36,366 nucleotides of DNA from Candidatus Nitrosopelagicus sp. (GTDB lineage: Archaea > Thermoproteota > Nitrososphaeria > Nitrososphaerales > Nitrosopumilaceae): the NCBI GenBank assembly GCA_028345575.1, contig JAOMDR010000013.1, positions 1-36,366 on the forward strand, given 5' to 3'. Of the stretch, positions 10,074-16,369 are shown in pieces. Position numbers and translations under genes: made by a program. Position 1 is the stretch's first letter. Each line of letters starts with the position of its first letter. Below the pieces are notes generated by a model. That model searched no databases. It saw only the letters and a program-made list of their open reading frames with translations, and had not been told where the DNA came from.

Positions 10074-11150
10074 ATGAAAGCAGTTGTTTATCGTGAATAT
10101 GCACCTGATGACGATTATGCAAAAATCCTCAAGGTTGAAGACATTGATTCACCAAAGCCAAAACCAGATGAGGTAGTTTTTACAAATAAAGCATCTGCTC
10201 TAAATTATAATGATATTTGGGGAATGAGAGGTGTTCCAATTGCAATTCCTCTACCACACGTTTCAGGTTCTGATGTTGCAGGAGATGTTATTGCAGTTGG
10301 TGAAGATGTAAAAGGTTTCAAAGTTGGTGATAGAGTTGTTTCTCATTCTAATTTAGCATGTAGAGTTTGTAGTGCTTGTACAAGTGGAAGAGAATTCGAT
10401 TGTACACGAAGACAAGTTTGGGGTTTCCAAACCGGCCCGCTATGGGGTGCATACAGTGAAGAAGTTCATTTACCAGAAGTTAATGTTTCACATATTCCAG
10501 AGGGAGTATCATATGAAGATGCAGCAGCAGCATCCATGACAATTTTAACCTCATGGCACATGTTAGTTGGAAGAGCAAAAATTACTCCAGGTCAAACCGT
10601 ACTTGTTATGGGTGGTGGTTCTGGTGTTGGAAGTTTTGCAATTCAAATTGCTAAATTATACAACTGTGATGTTATTGCAACTGCTAGTCCTGACAAACTT
10701 GATAAATGTCTTGAATTAGGTGCAGATCATGCAGTAGATCATAGACAAGAAGACTGGAGTAAACAAGTCTTCAAAATTTCAAAAGAAATTGCTAAAACAA
10801 AAGGTCAAGCACCAGGAATTGATTTATCATTTGATCATATCGGTGAAACTCACTTTAACAAGCAACTTCAATTGCTCAAATACGGTGCAACTCTAGTTTC
10901 ATGTGGCGCAACAACAGGCTACGATGCCAAAATCGATCTTAGACACATATTTTTCAAAGGAATTAATGTTCTAGGTTCAACACAAGGAACAAAGGCTGAA
11001 CTTGATGAAGGTCTATACTGGATGGGTCAAGGAAAAATTAAAGCCGCAGTTGACTCAGTCTATACATTTGAGCAAGCAGCAGAGGCTCACACAAAAATGC
11101 TATCTGGTAAGTTCTTCGGCAAAATCCTTTTGAAGCCTGAAGGCGCATAG
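10074..11150 (+). CDS. Crotonyl/acryloyl-CoA-reductase-like MDR dehydrogenase, copy 1
   Basis: The 358-residue protein is a medium-chain dehydrogenase/reductase. It keeps the structural zinc lobe (C96, C99, C102, C110) but has NYNDIWGMRG where zinc alcohol dehydrogenases carry the catalytic cysteine, so a catalytic zinc is unlikely. GGGSGVG begins the NAD(P)-binding fold. VWGFQT, GIDLSFDHIGETHF and ATTGYDAKIDLR parallel crotonyl-CoA reductase/carboxylase segments. I infer an enoyl-CoA reductase, with acryloyl-CoA reduction in the 3-hydroxypropionate/4-hydroxybutyrate cycle the most attractive role; another quinone or aldehyde substrate remains possible. A close copy lies at 23928-25001. A CitE-like gene follows after seven bases. 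Confidence 0.8.
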   Translation: MKAVVYREYAPDDDYAKILKVEDIDSPKPKPDEVVFTNKASALNYNDIWGMRGVPIAIPLPHVSGSDVAGDVIAVGEDVKGFKVGDRVVSHSNLACRVCSACTSGREFDCTRRQVWGFQTGPLWGAYSEEVHLPEVNVSHIPEGVSYEDAAAASMTILTSWHMLVGRAKITPGQTVLVMGGGSGVGSFAIQIAKLYNCDVIATASPDKLDKCLELGADHAVDHRQEDWSKQVFKISKEIAKTKGQAPGIDLSFDHIGETHFNKQLQLLKYGATLVSCGATTGYDAKIDLRHIFFKGINVLGSTQGTKAELDEGLYWMGQGKIKAAVDSVYTFEQAAEAHTKMLSGKFFGKILLKPEGA

Positions 11151-11157
11151 TCATTTA

Positions 11158-12012
11158 ATGACAAATCTTTTTCGAAGTCTAATTTTTGTACCCGGAAATA
11201 ATCCACGATTCTTAGAAAAAGCAAAATCACTTTCTGGAGATATTGTCTGTTTTGATTTAGAAGATTCTGTACCTGATAAAGAAAAACAAAATGCTAGAAC
11301 TTTAATCGCAAAAAAATTGAAAGAGCGAAAAGATTTCAAGGCATCAGTCTTTGTTAGAACTAATTCACCACCATCTGGAAAAGTTCCTAGTGATTTAGAA
11401 AAAATTGTTCAAAAAGGATTGGATGGAATAGTCATACCTAAAGTTGATTCAGCAAAAGAACTGAAAAAAATTGAAAAAATAATTTCTAATTTAGAAAAGA
11501 AAAGAAAATTGAAAAAAATACGCCTAATTCCTTCTATAGAATCTGCTTTAGGCGTGATTAATTGTTATGAAATTGCATCATCAAGTAAGAGAATTGATGC
11601 TATAGTATTTGGAATATTCGATTTATTGAACGATATGCAAATTGAATATACAAAAGGAAATCCTCTCGGTGGAAAATATTCTAGATACAAAGTACCTGTT
11701 GCAGCAGCTGCAGCAGGAGTTGCTGCTATAGATGGAATTTGGCAGGAAATTAAAGATGAAAAAGGTTTAGAGAAAGATTGTAAACTTGGAAAAGAATTAG
11801 GCTATTCAGGAAAAAGTATTATCCATCCTGATCAGATTAAGATAACTCATAAAATATTTCATCCTAACTCTTCAGAAATTTCTTGGTCCAAATTGGTGGT
11901 CAAAGAATATGAAAAATCGACAAAGAAGGGAAGAGGTGCAATCGTGGTTGATGGAAAAATGATTGATGAAGTTCATTATAAACGGGCTAAAGCATTACTA
12001 GAAATTATCTAA
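11158..12012 (+). CDS. CitE-like / HpcH-HpaI family lyase
   Basis: The 284-residue product belongs to the CitE/malyl-CoA lyase branch of the HpcH/HpaI aldolases. It has RSLIFVPGNNPRFLEKA and VCFDLEDSVP at the N-terminus, R68 in VFVRTN, and the metal ligands E128 (IPSIES) and D155 (GIFDLL); the residue before D155 is usually Glu and is Phe here. GKSIIHPDQI near the C-terminus is also typical. Such enzymes cleave malyl-, citramalyl- or related CoA esters. No CitD or CitF is nearby, so citrate lyase is unlikely. Its position behind an enoyl-CoA-reductase-like gene suggests CoA-ester metabolism; the substrate is unknown. Confidence 0.82.
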   Translation: MTNLFRSLIFVPGNNPRFLEKAKSLSGDIVCFDLEDSVPDKEKQNARTLIAKKLKERKDFKASVFVRTNSPPSGKVPSDLEKIVQKGLDGIVIPKVDSAKELKKIEKIISNLEKKRKLKKIRLIPSIESALGVINCYEIASSSKRIDAIVFGIFDLLNDMQIEYTKGNPLGGKYSRYKVPVAAAAAGVAAIDGIWQEIKDEKGLEKDCKLGKELGYSGKSIIHPDQIKITHKIFHPNSSEISWSKLVVKEYEKSTKKGRGAIVVDGKMIDEVHYKRAKALLEII

Positions 12013-12045: not shown

Positions 12046-12630
12046 ATGTTTACTGGAATAATCACTAGCACTGGAAAAATTAAAAAAATAGAACAAAATA
12101 CAAAAAATCGTAGTGCAGTCAAGGTATCTGTTGATCTTGGTAAAGATTCAAAGGGATTGAAAATTGGTCAAAGTGTTGCATTAAATGGTGTATGTCTTAG
12201 TGCAACAAAAATTGTAAAAAATATTTCTACATTTGAAATGATTGATGAAACAATGAAAAAAACAGATTTGGGAAATCTTAAAGTTGGAAGTATTGTTAAT
12301 GTTGAACGAAGTTTGAAAGTTGGTGAAAGATTAGAAGGACATTTTGTATTAGGTCATGTAGATGGTGTTGCACAAATTAAAAAAATAGAAAAAAAACCAA
12401 AAGAAGTAAAAATTTGGTTTAAGATTCCAAAAAATTTAAAAAAATATGTTGTTAAGAAAGGTTCTATTGCTTTAGATGGAATTAGTTTAACGGTTGTTGA
12501 TGTAAAAAATGATTTAGGTTCTGTTTGTCTCATTCCACATACAATCGAAATCACTAATTTTAAAACAAAAAATATTGAAGATAAATTAAATATCGAGACT
12601 GATGTATTAGGAAAATACATTTTAAAATAA
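12046..12630 (+). CDS. ribE: Riboflavin synthase, bacterial (two-barrel) type
   Basis: This enzyme turns two molecules of 6,7-dimethyl-8-ribityllumazine into riboflavin plus a pyrimidine. The 194 residues show two tandem lumazine-binding barrels: the first begins MFTGII and contains SVALNGVCLS, the second begins near EGHFVLGHVDG and contains SIALDGISLTVV. This is the trimeric bacterial and eukaryotic form. Euryarchaea and many Crenarchaea instead use an unrelated pentameric synthase derived from lumazine synthase, so a bacterial origin by old transfer is likely. It leads a cluster with ribB, ribH, arfA and arfC. Confidence 0.95.
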   Translation: MFTGIITSTGKIKKIEQNTKNRSAVKVSVDLGKDSKGLKIGQSVALNGVCLSATKIVKNISTFEMIDETMKKTDLGNLKVGSIVNVERSLKVGERLEGHFVLGHVDGVAQIKKIEKKPKEVKIWFKIPKNLKKYVVKKGSIALDGISLTVVDVKNDLGSVCLIPHTIEITNFKTKNIEDKLNIETDVLGKYILK

Positions 12631-12674
12631 ATATTAACTACCAATTTATTGGTAATAACAATTAATCTAGTAAA

Positions 12675-12686
12675 CTTTATAATAAG
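12675..12686 (+). promoter_or_regulatory. TATA-like box of ribB
   Basis: CTTTATAATAAG is centred about 26 bases before the ATG at 12706. It supports that ATG over the upstream one at 12649, which would place the box inside the coding region. Confidence 0.55.
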
Positions 12687-12705
12687 AAAAAAATCATTTT
12701 TTTAT

Positions 12706-13380
12706 ATGACATTTGATTCTGCACTTTCGTCATTAAAACAAGGTGAGTTTGTAATGATTCATGATTCTGATGGTCGTGAAAATGAAATTGATATGGTAGT
12801 TGCAGCAGAGTTTGTAACACCTGAACATATTGTCAGAATGAGAATGCATGCAGGAGGTTTACTATGTCTTGCAATTGATAATTCACTTGCTGAAAAATTA
12901 CAACTGAAATACATGCATAACATGTTATCTTCCTCAAATGAACTTGATGAAGAATCTAAAAAAATGATTATGGGTACTGCACCATACGGTGATCATCCAA
13001 CATTTTCAATTAGCATTAATCATAAACAAACCTATACTGGAATTACAGATAGAGACAGAGCATTAACTATCAAAGAAATGTCAACATTATACAAAAATGA
13101 AAATCCAAAACAATATTTCAATTCAACTTTTAAAACTCCTGGACACGTTCCGTTATTGATTGCATCAAACGGTCTTCTTTCTTCTAGAACTGGTCATACA
13201 GAAATGTCAGTATACTTGGCTCAATTAGCAAAACTTTCACCAATTACTGCTATCTGCGAAATGATGGATTCTGAAACATATTCTGCATTATCTGTTGATA
13301 AAGCAGAAAAATATGCAAAAGAAAATGCAATTCCTTTCATTGATGGTAAAGAATTACTTGAATTCGCCAAGGTGAATTAA
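12706..13380 (+). CDS. ribB: 3,4-dihydroxy-2-butanone 4-phosphate synthase
   Basis: RibB converts ribulose 5-phosphate into formate and the four-carbon unit of riboflavin. The sequence has FVMIHDSDGRENEIDMV (acidic metal-binding loop), the MRMHAGGLLCLAI strand, a late GHVPLLIA segment with the metal-binding histidine, and RTGHTEMSVYLAQLA. From ATG 12706 it has 224 residues, the normal length for a single-domain RibB with no fused GTP cyclohydrolase II. I chose this start because the extra 19 residues from 12649 are not family-like and a TATA box lies 26 bases upstream. ribH follows after two bases. Confidence 0.95.
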   Translation: MTFDSALSSLKQGEFVMIHDSDGRENEIDMVVAAEFVTPEHIVRMRMHAGGLLCLAIDNSLAEKLQLKYMHNMLSSSNELDEESKKMIMGTAPYGDHPTFSISINHKQTYTGITDRDRALTIKEMSTLYKNENPKQYFNSTFKTPGHVPLLIASNGLLSSRTGHTEMSVYLAQLAKLSPITAICEMMDSETYSALSVDKAEKYAKENAIPFIDGKELLEFAKVN

Positions 13381-13382
13381 TC

Positions 13383-13799
13383 TTGAAAATTGCAATAGTG
13401 GTAGCAGAATTTAACCAAAAGATAACATCACGCATGTATGATGTTGCATTAGAAACCGCAACAAAACTCAATGTTGATGTTGTACATACAAGTAATGTTA
13501 CAGGAATTTTTGATATGCCATTAGTCATTGACAAGTTATTACAAAGAAGTGATATTGATGCTGTAGTAACTTTGGGTGCAGTAATCAAAGGACAAACAAA
13601 ACATGATGAAGTAATTGCACATTCAACTGCAAGAAATATAGCAAAATTGTCCCTCAAACATCAAAAACCTGTTTCACTTGGAATTTCAGGTCCTGGTATG
13701 GCAGAAAGACAAGCATATGCAAGAATTAGACCCGTTTCTGAAAATGCTGTCAATGCAGTAGTCAAAGTATACAATGAGATTAAGGAAATAGAAAAATGA
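13383..13799 (+). CDS. ribH: 6,7-dimethyl-8-ribityllumazine synthase
   Basis: RibH joins the four-carbon phosphate from RibB with the pyrimidine precursor to make the lumazine that RibE uses. The 138 residues show KIAIVVAEFNQKIT, VTGIFDMPLVI, VTLGAVIKGQTKHDE (active-site histidine) and the C-terminal helix. It assembles into large capsids in other organisms. The start is TTG at 13383, two bases after ribB; the stop overlaps the ATG of arfA, so the three genes are translationally linked. Confidence 0.95.
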   Translation: MKIAIVVAEFNQKITSRMYDVALETATKLNVDVVHTSNVTGIFDMPLVIDKLLQRSDIDAVVTLGAVIKGQTKHDEVIAHSTARNIAKLSLKHQKPVSLGISGPGMAERQAYARIRPVSENAVNAVVKVYNEIKEIEK

Positions 13800-14548
13800 T
13801 TCAACTAACAATTATGAAAATTACAGGATACGGTCCTTGGACTCTAACTTTAGGATTTGACCGTGAACATGAATTACAGATGTTACAATCAAAATTATAC
13901 AACAAGCTTCAAGAGTTATTCTCAAAGAAAAATTGTTTGGTATTTCTCAATCGTTCTGATGAATATTTCTCAGTCACAAATGGTCTTTCACTTGATGATC
14001 ATGTTGCAATACAAAAAGAATTAGAGTCATCTTTTGATATCAAACTCTCAATGTCAATTGGTTATGGTGATAATCCATATGATGCAAATTTGGATGCATA
14101 TGAAGCAAAAAAATCACAAAAATTCCTAAATCAGCAGTATTCTATTTTTGGAACATTAAATGGCCATTCAGAACATTCTGTTACTGTAATGCACTTGGAT
14201 GTTGATGATATAACATCTATAAGAAAAAAGAGCATGTCTCCATATGATACTTCTTCATTGATGTTCAAAATTTATTCAAGAATGTCTGAGTACTTTCTTT
14301 CAAAAAATTCACTTACATTTTTCATGGGTGGTGATAATTTCATGGTTGTAACAAACTCTGAATTCAAAACTTTTGCAAAAGATTTCATCCAAATATGTAA
14401 AGATGAATTTCAAATTGAGCTGAATTGTGGAATAGGTACTGCATCAACTTCAAGAGATGCTGTTAAACTTGCAACAGAATCCCTAGATACAATAAGAGAA
14501 ATTAGAGATGCAGGAAAAGAAAAACCTGAAATCTATGAATTAAATTGA
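13796..14548 (+). CDS. arfA: GTP cyclohydrolase III (first step of archaeal riboflavin synthesis)
   Basis: ArfA opens the GTP imidazole ring and releases pyrophosphate, leaving a formylamino-pyrimidine nucleotide. The 250-residue protein shows the family start (ITGYGPWTLTLGFDREHELQMLQ), LVFLNRSDEYFSVTNGL, and a second half with MHLDVDDIT and FMGGDNFMV; the protein consists of two nucleotide-cyclase-like halves. The GGDNF segment matches the GGDN of the Methanocaldococcus enzyme. The ATG at 13796 overlaps the ribH stop, and the TGA overlaps the TTG start of the amidohydrolase. Its presence fixes this pathway as the archaeal branch. Confidence 0.93.
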   Translation: MIQLTIMKITGYGPWTLTLGFDREHELQMLQSKLYNKLQELFSKKNCLVFLNRSDEYFSVTNGLSLDDHVAIQKELESSFDIKLSMSIGYGDNPYDANLDAYEAKKSQKFLNQQYSIFGTLNGHSEHSVTVMHLDVDDITSIRKKSMSPYDTSSLMFKIYSRMSEYFLSKNSLTFFMGGDNFMVVTNSEFKTFAKDFIQICKDEFQIELNCGIGTASTSRDAVKLATESLDTIREIRDAGKEKPEIYELN

Positions 14549-15729
14549 TTCTAAAAAATATTAGCATACTCTATGGAAATGAATTAAAATTAATAGAATC
14601 TATTAATGTACAGATTAAAAATAAAAAATTTCAAAAAATTTCAAAAAATTTTTCTTCAAAAGAAAAATCAATTGATTGTTCAAATTTATTATTAATTCCT
14701 GGTTTCATTAATTCTCATACACATATTGCAGATTCAATTGGAAAAGATCTGTCAATTAATGCAGATGTTGATTCAAAAATTCATCCAATGTTTGGATTAA
14801 AACAAAAGTTACTCAAAGAAACTCCAAAAAAATTTCTAGCAAAATACATTCGTAACTCTGCAAAATCAATGATAAAAAAAGGAATTACAACATTTATTGA
14901 TTTTAGAGAAGGAGGTTTAGATGGTGTATTACTACTAAAATCTGCTTTAGATAGTATACCTATCCGTTGTGTAATTTTAGGAAGAATTGATTATTACAAC
15001 ACAAAAAATGAAATCAAACAAAATCTTTCTTTCCCTAGTGAAAATACCAAAAAATTAACTCAATTACTAAAAAACTGTCATGGAATTGGAATCAGTGGAA
15101 CAAACGAAAATGCTAGTTCAAACCTAAAATCATATTCAAAAACAAAAAAAATTCGTGCAATTCATGCAGCTGAGACACAAGATAGTGCAAATACCTCTAA
15201 AAAAATAACTGGAAAAACAGAGGTTCAAAGAGCCATGCTTCTTAATCCATCATTTCTAATTCACATGACTTTTGCAACAAATAATGATTTGAAACTTACA
15301 GCAAAAAATACACGTGGAATTGTTGTTTGTCCTCGCGCAAATTCTGCATTATCTGAAGGAATTCCTAACATTTCATTAATGCAAAAGTTTGGTTGTAACC
15401 TTACAATTGGAACAGATAATGTAATGATTAATTCTCCAGATATTTTTCGAGAAATGGATTATCTTTGGAAGGTAACTATGGGAATGTCTCAAGCTAGATT
15501 TGATCCAAAAGAAATATTGAAAATGGCTACTGTAAACGCAGGTAAAATGCTAAATCAGAAAATTGGCTGTATCAAAGAAAATTATCTTGCAGATTGTATT
15601 TTTATAGACAAAAATTCACTTGATTTGGAACCAATGAATAATGTACATGCATCTATAGTTCATCGCGCTTCTGAAAAATCAATTAAAGCTGTAATGATTG
15701 GAGGTGAAATTGTTAGTGGTAAACTCTAA
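14545..15729 (+). CDS. Amidohydrolase of the deaminase type inside the riboflavin cluster
   Basis: This 394-residue protein belongs to the metal-dependent amidohydrolase superfamily, on the side of guanine, cytosine and S-adenosylhomocysteine deaminases. Visible site residues are H58 and H60 (NSHTH), H207 and E210 (IHAAET), H240 (LIHMTF) and D291 (IGTDN). The HxxET pattern is typical of enzymes that remove an amino group from purine or pyrimidine rings. It sits between arfA and arfC with a four-base overlap at the front and a Shine-Dalgarno for arfC near its end. I infer that it acts on a riboflavin intermediate, most likely the deamination step; formamide hydrolysis (the ArfB step) is the alternative. 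Neither is shown by sequence. Confidence 0.82.
   Translation: MILKNISILYGNELKLIESINVQIKNKKFQKISKNFSSKEKSIDCSNLLLIPGFINSHTHIADSIGKDLSINADVDSKIHPMFGLKQKLLKETPKKFLAKYIRNSAKSMIKKGITTFIDFREGGLDGVLLLKSALDSIPIRCVILGRIDYYNTKNEIKQNLSFPSENTKKLTQLLKNCHGIGISGTNENASSNLKSYSKTKKIRAIHAAETQDSANTSKKITGKTEVQRAMLLNPSFLIHMTFATNNDLKLTAKNTRGIVVCPRANSALSEGIPNISLMQKFGCNLTIGTDNVMINSPDIFREMDYLWKVTMGMSQARFDPKEILKMATVNAGKMLNQKIGCIKENYLADCIFIDKNSLDLEPMNNVHASIVHRASEKSIKAVMIGGEIVSGKL
15700..15707 (+). promoter_or_regulatory. Strong Shine-Dalgarno fixing the arfC start
   Basis: GGAGGTGA is a near-full match to the anti-Shine-Dalgarno end of 16S rRNA and lies eight bases before GTG 15716. It argues for that GTG rather than TTG 15698 or GTG 15704, both of which overlap the motif. 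Confidence 0.75.
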
Positions 15730-16369
15730 GCCAAAAGTTACTCTTAGTGCTGCAATAACTCTTGACGGAAAAATTGGTCAAAAGAATAAACAAATTGTTC
15801 TGTCCTCTAAGGCTGATAAAATACGGGTTCATAAACTTCGTTCAAAATCTGATGCCATACTTATTGGTAAAAATACTGTAGAGCAAGATGATCCGCTCTT
15901 AACAGTCAGATATGCTAAAGGAAAAAATCCAATTCGAATAATTCTTGATTCTCATGGAACAATCAAAAATAATTCAAGAATAATTAAAACATGTAAACGT
16001 GTTCCAACAATAATTGTAACATCTGAAATTATATCAAAACCAAATCTAAATCGCTTAAGAAAATTACCCGTTGATGTGATTATTTGTGGGAAAAATCAGG
16101 TAAATTTAACAAAGCTTCTGCCAGTTTTATCAAAAAAAGGAATTAAGACTGTACTTTTAGAAGGTGGTGGAATACTAAATCGTTCTTTTTTGAAAAAAAA
16201 TCTAATTGATGAAATGATTATTGCACTAACTCCTTATGTTTTAGGATCAGAAAATACTGTTAGTTTGTTTGAAGGAATGTCTTTTCCAGAATTAAAAACA
16301 AAATTGCCTCTAAAATTAAAAAATGTTCAAAAAAGTGGTAATGAAATTATTTTAAATTATAAAATTTAA
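15716..16369 (+). CDS. arfC: Diaminopyrimidine ribosyl-phosphate reductase (RibD reductase-domain type)
   Basis: ArfC reduces the ribose of 2,5-diamino-6-ribosylamino-pyrimidinone phosphate to ribityl with NAD(P)H. The 217-residue product is a stand-alone RibD C-terminal domain with a dihydrofolate-reductase-like fold: PKVTLSAAITLDGKIG, SKSDAILIGKNTVEQDDPLLTVR, and VLLEGGGILNRSFL are family hallmarks. There is no fused deaminase domain, so the deamination must be done by another protein. The GTG 15716 start is set by a Shine-Dalgarno. The stop overlaps the TFE stop on the other strand by four bases. Confidence 0.92.
   Translation: MVNSKPKVTLSAAITLDGKIGQKNKQIVLSSKADKIRVHKLRSKSDAILIGKNTVEQDDPLLTVRYAKGKNPIRIILDSHGTIKNNSRIIKTCKRVPTIIVTSEIISKPNLNRLRKLPVDVIICGKNQVNLTKLLPVLSKKGIKTVLLEGGGILNRSFLKKNLIDEMIIALTPYVLGSENTVSLFEGMSFPELKTKLPLKLKNVQKSGNEIILNYKI

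Follow-up and report, generated by a model that had tools for sequence, protein, structure and literature searches.

An amidohydrolase gene in the riboflavin cluster

The window, by which we mean the whole 36,366-nucleotide stretch of DNA that was analysed, comes from a relative of Candidatus Nitrosopelagicus, and the five closest named relatives are Candidatus Nitrosopelagicus genomes with 92-96% identity. It contains a riboflavin cluster in the order ribE-ribB-ribH-arfA-[amidohydrolase]-arfC, with the following features.

12046-12630, + strand: ribE, bacterial-type riboflavin synthase alpha (NCBIfam TIGR00187, 207 bits, above the cut-off)
12649-13380, + strand: ribB, DHBP synthase (TIGR00506, 219 bits, above the cut-off)
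13383-13799, + strand: ribH, lumazine synthase (TIGR00114, 129 bits, above the cut-off)
13796-14548, + strand: arfA, GTP cyclohydrolase III (PF05165, 172 bits, passes the Pfam cut-off)
14545-15729, + strand: amidohydrolase (NF005552), proposed deaminase of the ArfC product (394 aa; Pfam and NCBIfam matches)
15700-15707, + strand: Shine-Dalgarno-like GGAGGTGA in the amidohydrolase gene, ahead of arfC (direct sequence reading)
15716-16369, + strand: arfC, stand-alone RibD_C reductase (PF01872, 162 bits; TIGR00227, 190 bits, passes)

The amidohydrolase ORF starts with TTG at 14545 and the TGA of arfA lies at 14546-14548, so that the two genes overlap by 4 nt. The longest arfC ORF begins at 15698, but GTG 15716 is the likelier start because GGAGGTGA precedes it and an overlap with arfC is also found in relatives; with this start the overlap with the amidohydrolase gene is 14 nt. 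The gene is thus embedded on both sides, as the initial annotation had described. For ribB, the true start is probably at about 12706, as the TIGR00506 match to the ORF starts at residue 21. A promoter and terminator scan, run with a bacterial-type model on this archaeal host, did no better than chance. Directly upstream of ribE lie genes for a zinc alcohol dehydrogenase (10074-11150) and an HpcH/HpaI-type lyase (11158-12012), and this pair also stands ahead of the riboflavin cluster in other Nitrosopumilaceae as well as in families f2, f3 and f8.

Fold, catalytic residues and a separate clade

The window protein matched Pfam Amidohydro_1 (PF01979, 4.9e-39) and is a member of NCBIfam NF005552 by score (338.2 bits; cut-off, 294). 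It carries, on a TIM barrel, the HxH, H, E, H, D set of the TRZ/ATZ (COG0402) deaminase branch of the amidohydrolase superfamily. These are H58, H60, H207, E210, H240 and D291, the six residues that had been picked out from the sequence as matching ring deaminases, and all six were invariant in 19 family sequences and in 69/69 proteins of the residue alignment. The AlphaFold model had a mean pLDDT of 92, and its nearest solved folds in Foldseek were adenosine/MTA deaminases, TM0936, the isocytosine-specific deaminase Vcz (TM 0.85) and guanine deaminases. The protein had no PF02633 (creatininase) match and so falls outside ArfB as defined by NF033501 and PF02633; its PF01979 domain is also not the cytidine-deaminase-fold N-terminal half of RibD/RibG (TIGR00326). 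Amidohydrolases are versatile, and superfamily membership alone therefore does not fix the substrate.

The alignment was made of 57 family members and 12 outgroup proteins, of which ten are archaeal paralogues and two are bacterial, and it separated the two groups at six further positions. D63, K86, E122 and N292 were found in 57/57 members and R264 and R374 in 55/57, whereas the 12 outgroup proteins carry other residues in these columns. Even in the highly divergent member from genome G185, D63, K86, E122 and N292 were retained together with the catalytic set. Three of the invariants are cationic (K86, R264 and R374), which, judged from sequence, would fit a phosphorylated substrate. In the tree, an NF005552-like riboflavin clade was set apart from the DadD/MTA-type paralogues with an SH-aLRT of 100, although one very long paralogue row strayed into it; some of these paralogues share genomes with family members. 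Many rib-linked members and the haloarchaeal ones missed the NF005552 cut-off and nonetheless fell within this clade.

Co-occurrence with ArfC and ArfA

The distribution of the family was examined in 121 genomes of the order and 300 genomes of the phylum. Within the order, 61/121 genomes had a family protein above the cut-off and 3 more had truncated, split or divergent copies. These are the same 64 genomes that have ArfC, with the family in 0/57 of the others and no discordant genome; the genomes of an order are related and not independent data points, so that a Fisher test on these counts overstates the significance, but the absences of the protein are spread over several separate families. 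ArfA was present in 62 of the 64 and nowhere else among the 121.

In the phylum sample, ArfC was also present in 77 of the 78 genomes with a strong family match, and the single exception was a genome 76% complete. Conversely, 48 genomes had an ArfC-like protein and no family match at E<=1e-40, and weaker matches were found in 41 of them. We considered these 48 as possible counter-examples and rejected them, since representatives of the weaker copies from several families belong to the family in trees and the memberless genomes lack ArfA. Placement was by representatives and covered part of the 48 genomes: those from families f19, f26, f28 and f32 and from two f38 genera fell in the family, and those from f61 and the f38 genus g75 were paralogues. 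All 13 genomes with an ArfC-like protein and no family member were without ArfA and are therefore not shown to run the riboflavin pathway. An ArfC-like RibD_C protein with neither ArfA nor the amidohydrolase was seen in f18, f39, f45, f52, f55, f61 and the f38 genus g75; the RibD_C proteins of these ArfA-less genomes may belong to a different route or catalyse a different reaction. Among the control genomes, the only four with matches at E<=1e-40 were the archaea M. jannaschii, H. volcanii, S. acidocaldarius and M. acetivorans.

Gene order in other lineages

The order arfA-amidohydrolase-arfC, whose conservation the initial annotation had proposed to trace, was contiguous in nearly all riboflavin loci read within the order, and linkage of the amidohydrolase gene to arfA, arfC, ribH or ribB was seen in ten families beyond it. 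It adjoins arfC in six of these (f30, f31, f44, f49, f51 and f67) and arfA in f48; in f35 it is the last gene of a ribB-x-ribH-arfA cluster, in f32 it is found together with arfC-arfA-ribB-ribH, and in f19 it lies opposite an arfA-ribH-ribB cluster. In f26 the other pathway genes were clustered and the amidohydrolase gene stood apart, and most copies in f26, f28 and f38 were divergent and unlinked to rib genes. Co-occurrence and gene order prove membership of the pathway better than they prove the exact step.

A second DMRL_synthase-like ORF was found beside ribH in several lineages (loci L170, L182-L185, L037, L041, L158, L178 and L194). It probably encodes a riboflavin synthase of the archaeal type; the lineage of the window, by contrast, uses the bacterial-type RibE. 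We also looked for the phosphatase (EC 3.1.3.104) in the riboflavin clusters read; none stood out, and apart from unrelated genes the search gave only TPR proteins and proteins resembling archaeal-type riboflavin synthase.

RibD-type deaminases and ArfB elsewhere in the genome

By profile search, the ArfC of the window consists of RibD_C only, and the lack of a fused deaminase domain that had been noted for it extends to every sampled genome (121 of the order and 300 of the phylum), none of which had a RibD deaminase half joined to ArfC. Likewise, the absence of a RibD deaminase from the cluster extends to the whole genome of the window, which is 86% complete and gave no TIGR00326 deaminase-half match; its single PF00383 protein is ComEB/dCMP-deaminase-like. 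The closed genome G096 of the same genus gave the same picture, with just one PF00383 (cytidine-deaminase-fold) protein, and the closed relative G001, which has the full cluster, had zero PF00383 (CDA-type) hits. We rejected the idea that the genome also encodes a RibD deaminase, whether fused or separate, as profile searches did not find one.

ArfB, which is indeed missing from the cluster of the window, was a different case. One creatininase-family protein is encoded on another contig of the same genome, and it likely acts as ArfB, to judge from its sequence family. Its gene, the only one of the creatininase family in the genome, lies directly 3' of a gene for a PurU-like formyltetrahydrofolate deformylase (L023:2975-4523, on C12 of the window's genome); both enzymes would release formate.

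Alternative assignments and the preferred reading

The initial annotation had offered, as its alternative, that the amidohydrolase takes the place of ArfB, the formamide hydrolase, and would thus remove the formyl group from the ArfA product. The gene does lie directly 3' of arfA in a cluster without arfB, and with NF033501, the model for archaeal ArfB, the creatininase of the window's genome reached just 57 bits against a cut-off of 180. However, a creatininase-type ArfB and the amidohydrolase gene share one cluster in five loci of relatives (L033, L037, L041, L158 and L171), and the creatininase-family protein BrbF is a proven ArfB analogue with ArfB activity in bacteria (PMC9478397). The fold neighbours of the window protein are also ring deaminases. 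With a creatininase elsewhere in the genome and in the clusters of relatives, we rejected the replacement of ArfB, which we regard as very unlikely. A role for the protein as a nucleoside or purine deaminase (acting on MTA, SAH, 5'-deoxyadenosine or guanine) that is merely located in the operon would agree with its superfamily branch and with the adenosine/MTA deaminases among its best solved-structure matches. Against this, the DadD/MTA/SAH deaminase models gave scores far under their cut-offs (134.8 bits against 617, and 88.6 against 522), the tree and the family-specific residues set the protein apart from such paralogues, and the co-occurrence of the family with ArfC is perfect across the order. 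On model scores, tree and diagnostic residues this role was rejected, and we give it hardly any weight.

A third alternative keeps the deaminase activity and changes its position: deamination would precede reduction, as in the bacterial order, and the substrate would be the ArfB product instead of the ArfC product. The gene order arfA-amidohydrolase-arfC could be read in this way, and the reduce-first order was established in M. jannaschii, which is another lineage (PMC13028884, PMC3403918). However, according to PMC8305020, which refers to Graupner 2002, the studied archaeal ArfC acts on the non-deaminated compound, and we consider deamination before reduction unlikely.

The reading we prefer is that the gene encodes the archaeal pyrimidine deaminase of the riboflavin/F420 pathway and that the enzyme acts after ArfC, with a probability of roughly 0.86. 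It is supported by the phyletic pattern, the gene order, the residue conservation, the structure class and the absence of a RibD-type deaminase; the proposal of a deaminase for the step after ArfC, made for this gene from sequence alone, gained support from genome comparison and a predicted structure.

Proposed reaction

For the substrate, the order of the steps and the role of the phosphate we infer the following scheme. ArfA would open GTP, a creatininase-type ArfB would then remove formate, and ArfC would reduce the ribosyl chain. The substrate of the amidohydrolase would be the substituted isocytosine 2,5-diamino-6-ribitylamino-4(3H)-pyrimidinone 5'-phosphate, whose C2 amino group would be removed by hydrolysis to give 5-amino-6-ribitylaminouracil 5'-phosphate and ammonia. 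As this presumed substrate is an isocytosine substituted at positions 5 and 6, the chemistry needed is C2-amino hydrolysis on a 2-amino-4-oxo pyrimidine, which is within the repertoire of the amidohydrolase deaminase branch. If the enzyme works like the guanine and isocytosine deaminases, one divalent metal would be held by H58, H60, H207 and D291, while E210, H240 and D291 would activate the water and relay protons. K86, R264 and R374, together with D63, E122 and N292, may recognise both the pyrimidine ring and the 5'-phosphate.

Vcz (PDB 7ww2/8is4) and the guanine deaminases resemble the window protein in fold (TM about 0.80-0.85) and metal site, and they carry out the C2-amino hydrolysis on a 2-amino-4-oxo-pyrimidine ring that is proposed here. 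They differ in sequence, with about 15-17% identity to the window protein, and in substrates, which have no 5'-phosphate, and D63, K86, E122, R264, N292 and R374 are the window family's own. The deaminase domain of RibD/RibG and the fungal Rib2 show the opposite combination: they catalyse the same pathway reaction as proposed here, in Rib2 also after reduction, but their fold is that of the cytidine deaminases and has no relation to the amidohydrolase barrel. It is probable, on a broader and less firm view than that taken of the window gene, that the family is the general archaeal riboflavin/F420 pyrimidine deaminase, a phosphate-reading enzyme of the isocytosine type, convergent with bacterial RibD and fungal Rib2 and widely inherited across Thermoproteota and Euryarchaeota. 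If so, archaeal flavin and F420 biosynthesis would no longer lack a deaminase, and this would be a clear case of one pathway step solved by two unrelated enzyme folds. The family, which the model NF005552 (PRK07213) describes as an archaeal amidohydrolase named "chlorohydrolase" without an assigned pathway role, would also have its label corrected.

Relation to an earlier prediction

Three gaps were left in the haloarchaeal riboflavin pathway, and according to PMC8305020, candidates for two of them were predicted by Rodionova et al. in 2017. In Table 6 of that paper, HVO_2483, 34% identical to MJ0699, is placed right after arfC and ahead of the missing phosphatase. This slot between arfC and the phosphatase gap is the deaminase position, although the table does not contain the word "deaminase". 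The host genomes of MJ0699 and HVO_2483 both have family matches at E<=1e-40, from which we infer the identity of the two locus tags with the family, and they very probably belong to it. The deaminase assignment was very probably already proposed in 2017 from other archaea and is not made here for the first time. The view in the initial annotation that the deaminase after ArfC is not firmly identified therefore stands in one respect, as we found no experimental proof of an archaeal deaminase in a literature search that had most subscription journals outside its reach, but not in the other, as the family had apparently been predicted. The present case is strong and testable support for a previously predicted enzyme, not a new kind of system.

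Haloarchaea also supplied three plasmid-borne homologues that scored 246-270 bits, join the riboflavin clade and carry the family-specific residues. The homologue of Halobacterium salinarum sits on the large plasmid pNRC200 (L217:4905-5924).
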